Shown one piece after another: positions 26,594 through 30,241 of a stretch of DNA of 43,710 bases (positions within the stretch are counted from its first letter, which is position 1; every line of letters starts with the position of its first letter). Source of the DNA: a virus. The position numbers and the translations under genes are program-made. The DNA is taken from positions 1-43,710 of IMG/VR virus record IMGVR_UViG_3300017756_003604; one strand, written 5' to 3'. The notes beneath the pieces were generated by a model. That model was not told the origin of the DNA, made no database searches, and was given only the letters and a program-made list of their open reading frames with translations.

Positions 26594-26914
26594 CTAAAAA
26601 GTCAGCCGCCCCGCTATCCAGGCCTCGGAACTGCGCAACATCACCCGCGCCTTCTCCCGGCTGATACCAAGCTCCGCCCCCATCATCGAGAAGTCCCAGC
26701 CCCGCACATAGTAATTCACCAGGGCCCGGCCCATGTCCGGTTCTGTCTGCTTCAGCTTGGCCACCGCCCGGTCCACCGCCAGGGCCTCATCATCCGGCAC
26801 CGTACAGCCACCACCCCCGGCCACCAGCTTCACCGCCGCATAGCCACTGGCAATGCCACCAGAGCGCACCCACTTGCCCCAGTCCTGCAATCTGATCTTT
26901 GTGTCTTCCAGCAT
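26594..26914 (-). CDS. Late-gene antitermination protein Q
   Basis: A 106-residue protein of the phage antitermination Q family: IRLQDWGKWVRSGGIASGY at the start, TVPDDEALAVDRAVAKLKQ, LVNYYVRGWDFSMMGAELG and ARVMLRSSEAWIAGRL. The last part resembles a sigma-like helix-turn-helix. The ATG at 26914 has GAGGGG upstream; a longer frame to 27040 lacks a good site and runs into the inverted repeat. Q binds at the late promoter and modifies RNA polymerase so that lysis and structural genes are transcribed. Confidence 0.85.
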   Translation of the reverse strand: MLEDTKIRLQDWGKWVRSGGIASGYAAVKLVAGGGGCTVPDDEALAVDRAVAKLKQTEPDMGRALVNYYVRGWDFSMMGAELGISREKARVMLRSSEAWIAGRLTF

Positions 26915-26996
26915 CGTGTTCCCCTCGGTTTTTGTAATGTTCAGCCCATGTACAGGGCAAAAGCCCAACGCAGAATAGAGCCAGCCCTTGCGGCAC

Positions 26997-27137
26997 AAGG
27001 GATGTACTAGGTCTACAGGGTGTGCGGGGTCATATCCCACACGCGAGAAAAAAATCTACTCTTTAAAAATTATTACGAAATAACGCGCACACGCGCGCGG
27101 CAAACCCTGCAGACCCTGTAGACCTAGTACATCCCTT
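26997..27137. repeat. 25-bp perfect inverted repeat flanking AT-rich DNA; candidate origin
   Basis: The arms at 26997-27021 and 27113-27137 are perfect complements over 25 bases (AAGGGATGTACTAGG... and ...CCTAGTACATCCCTT). The 91-base spacer holds an AT-rich run (about 27048-27083) and an alternating CG/CA tract (about 27083-27100). Overlapping the right arm are two tandem 9-mers, ACCCTGCAG and ACCCTGTAG (27104-27121). The 8-mer CTAGGTCT occurs a third time at 27161-27168, with GGTCTG/CAGACC as a further inverted pair (27164-27188). It lies beside the helicase genes in an otherwise empty 297-base gap (26915-27211). Repeats plus AT-rich DNA suggest an origin or a regulator-binding array. Confidence 0.6.
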
Positions 27138-27211
27138 CTCTCCCAAGGGCTCAGCGTATTCTAGGTCTGAGAAATGGGCCTGCAGACCCCGAACATTTCT
27201 GGCTGTCCTGG

Positions 27212-27664
27212 TCACGTGACGGCCTCCAGCTCTCGCAGAAACGCCGCTTCCTGCTCACCCAATTGGTCAGCCAAAGGACGGCCCTGTTCGTGGATCCACC
27301 CCGCCGGCTGAACCACCATCCTGGTTCGCTTATGTATTCCCAACCGGACCCACCGCCTGGACTTCTCCAGGTTATCGGGTAGCGATTTCAGCAGCATGGT
27401 TTCCGTCTGGATATACCCCTTTCGGCTTCTCGCCCACCACTCGTAAAGCCGATATAAGCTCATGGAGGTACAGGGCCGGACGGCTACCGGTAGCATCCCG
27501 CACGACCACTCCCTATAAAACAGATCGATGCCAGAAGGTTCAGCGACACCAACCGCCCTGATTGCATCCAGAAGATCCTCTTTACGGATGGCTAACCTGT
27601 CCGCCACGTCATCCGCACTCACACGCCGACCACCGTACTTAATCACCACATCTGTTCCGGCCAT
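27212..27664 (-). CDS. Stand-alone paralogue of the helicase C-terminal domain
   Basis: A 150-residue protein. Residues 49-110 (FYREW, then P-x-x-x-x-x-C-T-S-M-S-L-Y-R-L-Y-E-W-W, then T-E-T-M-L-L-K-S-L) align with the C-terminal domain of the neighbouring helicase at residues 436-495 (FYREW, P-C-L-T-R-D-L-Y-H-S-Y-Q-A-W, T-E-T-K-L). In such helicases this C-terminal region is a winged helix that binds DNA. Residues 10-40 look like a second small helix-turn-helix (VSADDVADRLAIRKEDLLDAI). The ATG has GGAGG upstream. It may bind the adjacent repeat region in replication (inference). No published family was recognised. Confidence 0.7.
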   Translation of the reverse strand: MAGTDVVIKYGGRRVSADDVADRLAIRKEDLLDAIRAVGVAEPSGIDLFYREWSCGMLPVAVRPCTSMSLYRLYEWWARSRKGYIQTETMLLKSLPDNLEKSRRWVRLGIHKRTRMVVQPAGWIHEQGRPLADQLGEQEAAFLRELEAVT

Positions 27665-27666
27665 AA

Positions 27667-29292
27667 TCAGTTATCCTCCGCTCTGGGGCCCGCCCGCATA
27701 CGGAATTCCGCCACGCAACGGCCAAGCCAATCCATTTCATTTTCGCCACTGGGAGCAGCACAGCCCTCCGGAATAAAGAAGGTACCCAGTTTCTGGCAAT
27801 GGCCTTCAATCCTGTAATGCTTGCGCACCTTGTACAAGCGGCTGGCGTAGATAGTGATGAGCTTGGTTTCCGTCAGCGCCCGGTTGCCGGTCTGCCGACA
27901 CCATGCCTGGTAGGAATGGTATAGATCGCGGGTCAGGCAGGGCGAGAAAGGCACGTCCGTTTCGTTGTGCATCCACTCCCGGTAAAACACCTCAAAGTTA
28001 GGCAACGAGAACTCCACCACCCGATCCCGGGCCCGGGTCTGCAATGGCTTGCTGTGGGGATTGAAATTGCCAAGGGGGTAATCCAGCAGGTACTGGTAGA
28101 AGGCCTCCGGCCCGCCGTTGTCCAGCTCCATGGACACCCGCATCTGCAGGTTCTCGTAAAGGGTATGCTTCGGCCACACCACCAGGAACCGCCGGTCAGA
28201 AGGCTCCAGGGGGAACGGCTGTATCTCGTTACTCAGAAACACCCCGTTCATGTGGTTGGCTTCCTCCCAGCCGGAAACGAACTTCCGCTCGATCCGCTGG
28301 GTAGGGCCGGTAATCATGTGCTTGATGGTGCCCATCTGGTTGTGCTTCTCAGTGCGGGACAGCACTTCCTCAAACACCGCATACAGCAGCCGGCTTCGCC
28401 AGTCCGTGTATTGTGACTCCAACTGGTGCTGCCCCAGCACACTGGCGTACTCACCATAAATGGCCGTCATCACCCGCCCGAAGAACAGGCTTTTACCACT
28501 GCCCTGAATATCCGAGTGGAACAGCAGCGCCGTGTCCAGCTTGGCCCCCACATGCTGCAGCGGGTAAGCCAGCCACCGCACCACCCAGTCATAGACTTCC
28601 TCGTCTTCATTGCACAAATGCCGCAGCAGGCTGATGATGCCCTCGCACTTGCCGTACCCGGTAGCCGTCGCGTCCGGGTCCGGCACCAGGGGAATGCCGG
28701 TAAAGGTGTTGATCTTCTGGCTGGGGTCCGCCTTCTGGGTAGGGTCAAACACAATGTCGTCCTGATGCCGCCACTCCCGGTTCGGGTGTTCCATCCAGCG
28801 GCTGAACTCATTGGGCTTCAGCGCCTTCAGCGCTTCCAGCGTCACGATATCCTGGTACTCACGATCCCACACGTTCTTGGTCGGGTAGATGTACACAAAC
28901 CGCTGCAGCATACCCACCAGCGGATCGCCCTTCTCCGGCTGTTTCTTCCAGCCGTTCACTTCCAGCCAGGTGACCGTACGCCGGTCTTCGTGGTTCAGCC
29001 ACTCATTGAACAGTTTGTTGCCCAGGGTGGCCTTCATGCCGGCCTGCTTGTGCACCTGGCGCTGGTGCCCGTCCCAGATCTTGGTTTCCCCATGGATCAG
29101 CGCATAGCGCTTGAGGGCCCCTTCCAGAGTCGGGACTTCCCCCGCACCCCCAGAATCAGAGGGGGCCGGGGGAGATTCCTCCTGTTCGTCGTCGTTACTC
29201 GCAGGCCCGGCCTCTATCGCTGCCATCACCTGCTTTCGCACCGCGTCTATGCCATGCGCCTTATGCAAATCGTTAAAATCAGTCAACGCCAT
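27667..29292 (-). CDS. Replicative SF3 helicase / primase-helicase, DUF5906 type
   Basis: A 541-residue protein. Residues about 225-375 are a superfamily 3 ATPase: Walker A SDIQGSGKSLFFG (residues 260-272), Walker B region RLLYAVFEEVL (about 302) and the motif C-like GVFLSNEIQPF (about 350). The C-terminal part from residue 430 is a winged-helix type domain. The first 120 residues are acidic and less conserved. The ATG at 29292 has GGAGGTGG upstream and overlaps the Toprim gene stop by 14 bases; a longer start at 29334 is rejected. It is expected to open the origin and act with the Toprim primase. Confidence 0.85.
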   Translation of the reverse strand: MALTDFNDLHKAHGIDAVRKQVMAAIEAGPASNDDEQEESPPAPSDSGGAGEVPTLEGALKRYALIHGETKIWDGHQRQVHKQAGMKATLGNKLFNEWLNHEDRRTVTWLEVNGWKKQPEKGDPLVGMLQRFVYIYPTKNVWDREYQDIVTLEALKALKPNEFSRWMEHPNREWRHQDDIVFDPTQKADPSQKINTFTGIPLVPDPDATATGYGKCEGIISLLRHLCNEDEEVYDWVVRWLAYPLQHVGAKLDTALLFHSDIQGSGKSLFFGRVMTAIYGEYASVLGQHQLESQYTDWRSRLLYAVFEEVLSRTEKHNQMGTIKHMITGPTQRIERKFVSGWEEANHMNGVFLSNEIQPFPLEPSDRRFLVVWPKHTLYENLQMRVSMELDNGGPEAFYQYLLDYPLGNFNPHSKPLQTRARDRVVEFSLPNFEVFYREWMHNETDVPFSPCLTRDLYHSYQAWCRQTGNRALTETKLITIYASRLYKVRKHYRIEGHCQKLGTFFIPEGCAAPSGENEMDWLGRCVAEFRMRAGPRAEDN

Positions 29293-30175
29293 CGGCCACC
29301 TCCGGAAACGTCGGAAGCACCCACACACCGCCAACGGCCTTCGCCGCCGCCTGGGCTTTTACCCGGCCCGGGTTGGTACCAATACGCTCTGCTGTCTCCG
29401 CATCATCATCACCGGCCACACAAATCAGCGCCTCCGGCATGAATGACCGCAGCACCCGGGCAACCGGCTCAAGGTTGCCGGAGTCAAACGCCACCGCCAC
29501 CGGCAGGCCCGTGGCCATGTGCACACTGGCACCGGTGGCGTAGCCTTCCACAACCACCACCGGGCACTCCTGTTCCGGTACCGCCGTCAGCCAGTGGAAA
29601 GACCCTTCCTTCGGGGTGCCGGTGAGAAACGTCTTTTCACCATCCGCCCGCACAAACTGCAGGCTCACCAGATCCAGCCCGAACAGCGCCGGGCCATCCA
29701 CAGCCACCGGCTTATACACCGGCACAACCACACTGCCCCGGCTGAACCGTAGGCCGAATGCACCAACACCCTTCTTGTCCAGGTACTCACTGGGGCCACT
29801 GTCCGGCAGGTTCGGCCAGATTCGCTGCGCCCTCTCCCGGCACTGGCGCGCCGCTGCCTCTGCTTCCTTGCGGGCCTTCTCCTGGGCTTCCTTGCGCTTG
29901 CGCTCATACTCCCGGCGGTCTTCCTCTGTGAGCGATCCCGCAGGCATACCAACCTTGCGCCGCTCGTCAGCCTTGTAGTTGCCAAAGGAACCAGCCAGCC
30001 CATACCCGCCTTTACTCAGACGGAATTCATGGACCACATACCAGCCGGATTTCTTCTTGCCCTTGTCGGGCCGGGGAAAGGTAACAGGCACCCGGACAAT
30101 CTTGCCGGATGTGTCGAGGTGGTCGACCAGTAGGCCGATCTCTCGCATCTGGGAAAGCACTGAATCAACGTCCAT
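29279..30175 (-). CDS. Toprim-domain primase-like protein
   Basis: A 298-residue protein. Residues about 1-150 hold a basic and helical region with a long charged helix (EEDRREYERKRKEAQEKARKEAEAA). Residues about 180-290 are a Toprim domain: CPVVVVEGYATGASVHMATG with the catalytic glutamate, VAFDSGNLEPVARVL and ICVAGDDDAETAERIG with the metal-binding D-x-D. This matches the phage and plasmid primase Toprim type seen beside DUF5906 helicases. The ATG at 30175 is preceded by a G-run; a TTG six codons upstream is rejected. It follows cro in the leftward operon. Confidence 0.85.
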   Translation of the reverse strand: MDVDSVLSQMREIGLLVDHLDTSGKIVRVPVTFPRPDKGKKKSGWYVVHEFRLSKGGYGLAGSFGNYKADERRKVGMPAGSLTEEDRREYERKRKEAQEKARKEAEAAARQCRERAQRIWPNLPDSGPSEYLDKKGVGAFGLRFSRGSVVVPVYKPVAVDGPALFGLDLVSLQFVRADGEKTFLTGTPKEGSFHWLTAVPEQECPVVVVEGYATGASVHMATGLPVAVAFDSGNLEPVARVLRSFMPEALICVAGDDDAETAERIGTNPGRVKAQAAAKAVGGVWVLPTFPEVADGVD

Positions 30176-30241
30176 AGCGCCCCCCGCAATCAAAAAACGG
30201 TGTCATGGAAAGAGCCCTCAATCCAGTAGGGAGGTGGTTAC

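Follow-up and report, generated by a model that had tools for sequence, protein, structure and literature searches.

Genes and inverted repeat at the locus

The window, by which we mean the whole 43,710-nt stretch of the viral IMG/VR record IMGVR_UViG_3300017756_003604, carries the following gene order on its minus strand: a TOPRIM primase (29279..30193), an SF3/D5-type helicase (DUF5906; 27667..29334, likely ATG at 29292), a 150-amino acid protein (27212..27664), a long inverted repeat and, as the next gene past the repeat, the antitermination protein Q (26594..26911). The helicase was assigned to the SF3/D5 type by both profile and fold, with matches to the NrS-1 CTR (6k9c), the SaPI5 primase-helicase (7ola) and vaccinia D5; it has a C-terminal winged helix and is the proposed initiator. 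The TOPRIM half is encoded separately, and the primase and helicase ORFs overlap at 29279-29334; the matching PHROG profile (phrog_2249) covers both.

The longest perfect inverted repeat of the 43.7-kb window has 25-nt arms at 26997-27021 and 27113-27137, exactly where a preliminary description made from the sequence had placed them, and no other inverted repeat of the window is as strong; the next longest has 16 nt and is near-contiguous. When mismatches were allowed, the arms extended to 26972-27030 and 27104-27162 (59 nt, 81% complementary, 73-nt spacer). The inverted-repeat score was 30 (spacer: 60-140 nt), compared with 11 for the next best site in the window and a maximum of 11 in 60 shuffles, and single-strand DNA folding of the region gave z = -9. 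The repeat region had also been described as gene-free, which holds once Q is taken to begin at ATG 26911, the start used by Q relatives.

Searches with the repeat region returned no match in Rfam and none at the DNA level in the phage collection, and origins were therefore compared through the neighboring helicase. An exact-pattern search of IMG/VR for TACTAGGTCTACAGGGT yielded one single-site stretch. No promoter-like site was found in the repeat region. GC-skew turn points had been put forward as a check on an origin at this site; the window has no skew turn at 27 kb, where the repeat lies, but in a prophage skew tracks the orientation of the genes, so this counts only weakly against an origin.

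A long inverted repeat around a short spacer could also be a mobile-element remnant with MITE-like terminal inverted repeats, or an invertible switch. The repeat is present in a single copy in the record, no invertase lies beside it, and in diverse phages it keeps a constant place 3' of the helicase gene with a repeat sequence that differs per lineage. On these grounds MITE or IS remnants and invertible switches were ruled out, and we assign them next to no probability.

Iteron arrays and core

The candidate minimal origin (26997..27137) consists of two inverted arrays, each of three tandem 9-bp iterons, around an AT-rich core. Read from the helicase on the minus strand, the left arm is AAGGGA-TGTACTAGG-TCTACAGGG-TCTGCAGGG-T, and the right arm, taken as its reverse complement, is AAGGGA-TGTACTAGG-TCTACAGGG-TGTGCGGGG-T. 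The helicase-proximal inner array (27105..27131, minus strand) thus comprises TGTACTAGG at 27123-27131, TCTACAGGG at 27114-27122 and TCTGCAGGG at 27105-27113, and the inverted Q-proximal inner array (27003..27029, plus strand) comprises TGTACTAGG at 27003-27011, TCTACAGGG at 27012-27020 and TGTGCGGGG at 27021-27029. An AAGGGA box lies beside the first iteron (26997..27002, plus strand) with its mirror, TCCCTT, at 27132-27137; the box stands on both sides in the class of loci with TNTACAGGG iterons (the window and the relatives L005, L012 and L090). Because each arm is made of three tandem 9-bp units, the perfect 25 bp comprise the AAGGGA box, two complete iterons and the initial base of the next.

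Further iterons lie outside the arms. Two degenerate copies are found on the helicase-proximal side (27157..27186; TATTCTAGG at 27157-27165 on the plus strand and TCTGCAGGC at 27178-27186 on the minus strand), with homologous outer direct or inverted iterons in relatives, and one on the Q-proximal side (26946..26957, plus strand; TGTACAGGG at 26949-26957). The tandem 9-mers ACCCTGCAG and ACCCTGTAG, the CTAGGTCT at 27161-27168 and the GGTCTG/CAGACC pair listed in the preliminary description are all there as fragments of the 9-bp iteron, and its third CTAGGTCT falls within the outer helicase-proximal iterons. The iteron consensus is TNTRC[AT][GA]GG; the window has 13 full matches, 6 of them inside the 410-bp origin stretch (expected: 0.12). 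Unusually, the window combines a perfect dyad with iterons that are degenerate when compared with nearly all relatives (3 copies of the top 8-mer); its origin may therefore have decayed in part or changed in specificity. A lambda-type origin, in which the iterons lie inside gene O, was ruled out, as the iterons here are intergenic and the helicase is of the SF3/D5 type.

The core between the arms (27031..27103, 73 nt) has 58% A+T compared with 41% in the upstream gene, is AT-richest at about 27047-27083, and is proposed to be the duplex-unwinding element. It contains two conserved boxes, an alternating purine-pyrimidine CG box (27084..27101; GCCGCGCGCGTGTGCGCG on the minus strand) that adjoins one array and a T-tract with a CTC-CGCG motif (27038..27057; AGATTTTTTTCTCGCGTGTG on the minus strand) near the other, with the AT-rich stretch between them. 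The alternating run of the CG box is 17 nt long in the window, and the maximum across 200 shuffles was 12.

Conservation of the layout in relatives

Relatives were gathered by helicase search, which gave 80 viral loci and 66 loci in bacterial genomes, the latter mostly from Pseudomonas and also from Marinobacter, Hahella, Alcanivorax, Oceanobacter and others. All of the approximately 145 prophage loci with a readable 3' flank carry, just 3' of the SF3 primase-helicase gene, tandem repeats in inverted arrangement that flank a similarly sized core, so that the conservation in relatives asked about at the outset was found at the same position in every readable one. For layout statistics the relatives were dereplicated to 58 loci. 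Inverted tandem repeats were present shortly past the helicase stop in 58 of 58, with cores of 69-140 nt (median 88). The inverted-repeat score of these 58 origins had a median of 20 (range: 11-34) versus 7 in the helicase genes (maximum: 10), the most frequent 8-mer had a median of 7.5 copies versus 2 in controls, and the core beyond the CG box was AT-richer than the gene in 56 loci. Nearly all relatives have a CG-rich alternating run, and the T-tract/CTC-CGCG motif was matched in most of the 58 origins. The layout was also found in the plasmid pMP1 and in the phages S1, H4907, Mcat1/9, pAN, Turba and BPP-1; it is absent from the lytic phages RDJL1, phiVC8 and PW916, whose helicases are distant.

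The iterons themselves are lineage-specific (TTTACAGGG, TGTGCAGGG, TTACCGGAC, CTAGGG, TGTGTTGGG and others), and within one origin the units on either side of the core are nearly alike. The inner array of the window aligns with three copies of TTTACAGGG in L004 and three of TGTGCAGGG in L006-L011. Such lineage-wise change on both sides of the core is concerted, which is what binding sites for a single protein would show. The CG box and the T-tract/CTC-CGCG near-palindrome stay conserved in the cores while the iterons change, and neither was seen in the P4 crr.

The position of the repeat just upstream of Q would also suit a role in regulating Q or the replication operon in place of an origin, either as an operator with the 150-aa protein as repressor or as an RNA leader with an attenuator hairpin; that protein, encoded next door, is a predicted DNA-binding winged-helix protein, and the CG box scores as terminator-like on the minus strand. 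Against this, Rfam matches and promoter-like sites are both absent, the iterons outside the arms in both orientations misfit an RNA hairpin, nearly all relatives keep the layout without the 150-aa protein, and the layout occurs in phages and a plasmid that have no annotated Q alongside. We consider a purely regulatory role very unlikely.

Arm pairing and the stem-loop alternative

A second alternative, which follows the model for pRN1 and BIP-1, is that the initiator recognizes a cruciform or stem-loop structure instead of a set of iterons. The 25-bp stem of the window has no mismatch and high stability; iteron units 1 and 2, unlike each other, recur identically in both arms; and a stem-loop is required in pRN1, with the same proposed for the phages BIP-1 and BPP-1 (PMC4234260). 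The pairing in relatives argues the other way: arms shifted by one repeat keep a median of 70% pairing, compared with 85% in register (a value slightly biased upward because the arms were located by best pairing) and 22% at random offsets, and pairing drops to 40% just outside the arrays. Moreover, the third unit on the right-hand side carries a mismatch common to several close relatives (TGTGCATGG in L008 and L011; TTTGCATGG in L004), and in BPP-1 the region 3' of the replication gene itself holds tandem 9-bp TTTGCCTCG iterons in inverted order. We therefore hold structural recognition to be improbable, if somewhat less so than the operator or leader.

A large regulatory cruciform, offered in the preliminary description as the alternative to an origin, is likewise disfavored as the principal role, given that the pairing of the arms comes mostly from their being copies of one common repeat unit. 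In general, the stem would be a by-product of inverted iterons. The exact mirroring of two differing units in the window could reflect gene conversion between the arms or selection for the dyad.

Recombinant loci and the probable iteron reader

Among the nearest relatives, two winged-helix types pair with two iteron types: TNTACAGGG in the window, L004, L005, L012 and L090, and TGTGCAGGG in L006-L011 and L091. The ATPase parts and the Q genes group otherwise than these winged-helix/iteron types. Counted from the helicase stop, nucleotide identity between L090 and L008 or L009 is 94-100% across most of the DNA that precedes about -311, and likewise beyond +324, with Q at 100%; between these points it is 34-78%. 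The exchanged block consists of the winged helix (the last ~105 codons of the helicase, 51% identity) and the whole origin. The pair L005/L007 has the same block boundaries, and L004/L006 a similar block. L090 was binned in a 'Rhodopirellula' MAG yet is most similar to Marinobacter-type phages, and this is probably a binning error.

Because near-identical sequence lies on both sides, the exchange is not explained by linkage to either flank. The winged helix and the origin would travel together in any case because they are adjacent; the exchanged tract ends near both functional boundaries. These recombinants, which bear most strongly on mechanism, point to the C-terminal winged helix of the helicase as the iteron reader, as supporting evidence and not as proof. 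In a Mantel-type test across all locus pairs, iteron similarity had a partial rho of 0.29 with the winged helix and 0.26 with the ATPase part; because this correlation separates the two only slightly, the assignment of the reader rests on the recombinants together with the SaPI and P4 precedent.

The 150-aa protein beside the inverted repeat

The 150-aa protein, encoded on the minus strand between helicase and origin, has a small N-terminal HTH-like domain and a winged helix. It is 31% identical to the C-terminus of its own helicase (E-value 2e-11) and 42% identical to the protein at the same position in L004, its one true relative; beyond L004, homology searches of viral contigs and 124 Marinobacter genomes returned helicase winged helices only. 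The AlphaFold model has a pLDDT of 92.8, and residues ~41-125 resemble RFX and ORC/Cdc6 winged helices in fold, at Z-scores (5.0-5.6) that unrelated structures can also reach. The P4 alpha origin-binding domain (OBD) is absent from the fold match lists, which has no bearing on kinship. In a Hahella-like phage (L013:8206-8829), a second winged-helix copy ends a weakly Rha-like regulatory ORF.

The preliminary description had the small winged-helix paralogue bind the origin. It is an unlikely primary reader: nearly all relatives lack it and keep the iteron layout, so that the primary reader is most likely the C-terminal domain of the helicase itself. For the same reason the 150-aa protein is more likely a modulator than an essential reader, and most likely it would play an accessory, modulating part at this origin, perhaps as a competitor, a copy-number regulator or a loading aid.

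A more elaborate proposal joins two parts. The phages of the window and L004 would have a two-reader origin, where a winged-helix protein that arose by duplication from the initiator, and is encoded between it and the origin, also binds that origin and determines its specificity or copy number; in the window this would have allowed the iterons to drift under an unchanged, perfect dyad; the core boxes would be an undescribed element, such as a hexamer stop, a Z-DNA-prone boundary or a priming site. We put this forward tentatively, as a combination that is possible but on the whole unlikely to be right in full.

Proposed function as a replication origin

The inverted repeat is very probably a replication origin of the SaPI/PICI type, that is, a rep-ori module with a self-loading initiator, in a temperate phage. 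That the origin is opened by the SF3 helicase, as had been suggested, is strongly supported by the same layout at the same position in relatives and by the exchange of the origin with the helicase winged helix. By analogy with SaPI, PICI and P4, the SF3 primase-helicase would bind the 9-bp iterons through its C-terminal winged helix, two opposed hexamers would assemble, one per inverted array, and these would melt the AT-rich core between the arrays; two forks would then start bidirectionally, with primers from the adjacent TOPRIM protein. What the comparisons of sequences establish is the anatomy of the element, its universal position 3' of the helicase gene, a concerted change of all iterons from lineage to lineage and the natural exchange of winged helix and origin as a cassette.

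On this reading as an origin, the satellite-type (SaPI/PICI) replicon would be a replication module widespread among ordinary temperate phages, with Pseudomonas, Marinobacter, Hahella and Alcanivorax among their hosts, and its origin could be spotted by eye on the 3' side of the helicase gene. Since winged helix and origin have been exchanged in nature, nearly isogenic pairs are available in which iteron specificity can be tested directly, and the exchanges suggest that phages may change replication compatibility by swapping a ~635-bp cassette. The BPP-1-like 'stem-loop' origin would be recast as inverted iterons. No paper describing these phage origins was found in open-access full texts.

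Comparison with known replicons

In SaPIs the origin follows closely behind rep, whose C-terminal domain reads it (PMC7581432), and the pri-rep-ori of E. coli-type PICIs maintains a plasmid, with lower maintenance when ori is deleted (PMC6092414). Like SaPIbov1, SaPI5 and EcCICFT073 (PMC7581432, PMC6092414), the window has an SF3 helicase, the proposed initiator, with a predicted C-terminal DNA-binding domain, and two iteron sets around an AT-rich region, with an iteron sequence that varies between elements. The origin likewise follows the rep gene directly in these phages, save that the 150-aa gene lies in between in the window and in L004. In contrast to SaPIs and PICIs, the module here is carried by a complete temperate phage, primase and helicase are encoded by two ORFs that overlap, and a winged-helix paralogue is encoded between helicase and origin. 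This extra gene and the conserved core boxes (CG-alternating and T-tract/CGCG, known here from the window and its relatives alone) are what is novel relative to the known satellite rep-ori.

P4 alpha is similarly a TOPRIM-SF3-winged helix initiator, and the P4 crr lies directly 3' of alpha with iterons in ++ / -- order. The P4 crr differs in consisting of two 120-bp direct repeats with a distant ori, and P4 cores are short and without a CG box. A repeat search of the window showed no second cis site comparable to the pairing of P4 ori and crr.

pRN1 and the Bordetella phages BIP-1 and BPP-1 (PMC4234260) also have an inverted repeat capable of forming a stem-loop 3' of an SF3/winged-helix replication gene; the primase is of the AEP type there, fused to the SF3 helicase in the pRN1 type, and TOPRIM here. 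BIP-1 was described as without an iteron origin, and stem-loop recognition was proposed (PMC4234260). Unlike in that account, the stems here and in BPP-1 are tandem 9-bp iterons. In BPP-1 (L156), two tandem TTTGCCTCG units face two inverted ones across a ~73-nt core, ~460-570 nt 3' of bbp29, and the published 'stem-loop' of this phage probably consists of iterons.

In the Vibrio plasmid pMP1 (L173), inverted TTTCCACGT-like repeats surround an AT-rich core 0-400 nt 3' of the primase-helicase gene. The order of primase-helicase gene, inverted repeats and AT-rich core is thus shared with the window; pMP1 is circular, its helicase is distant (23% identity) and, unlike the window, it is not an induced prophage.
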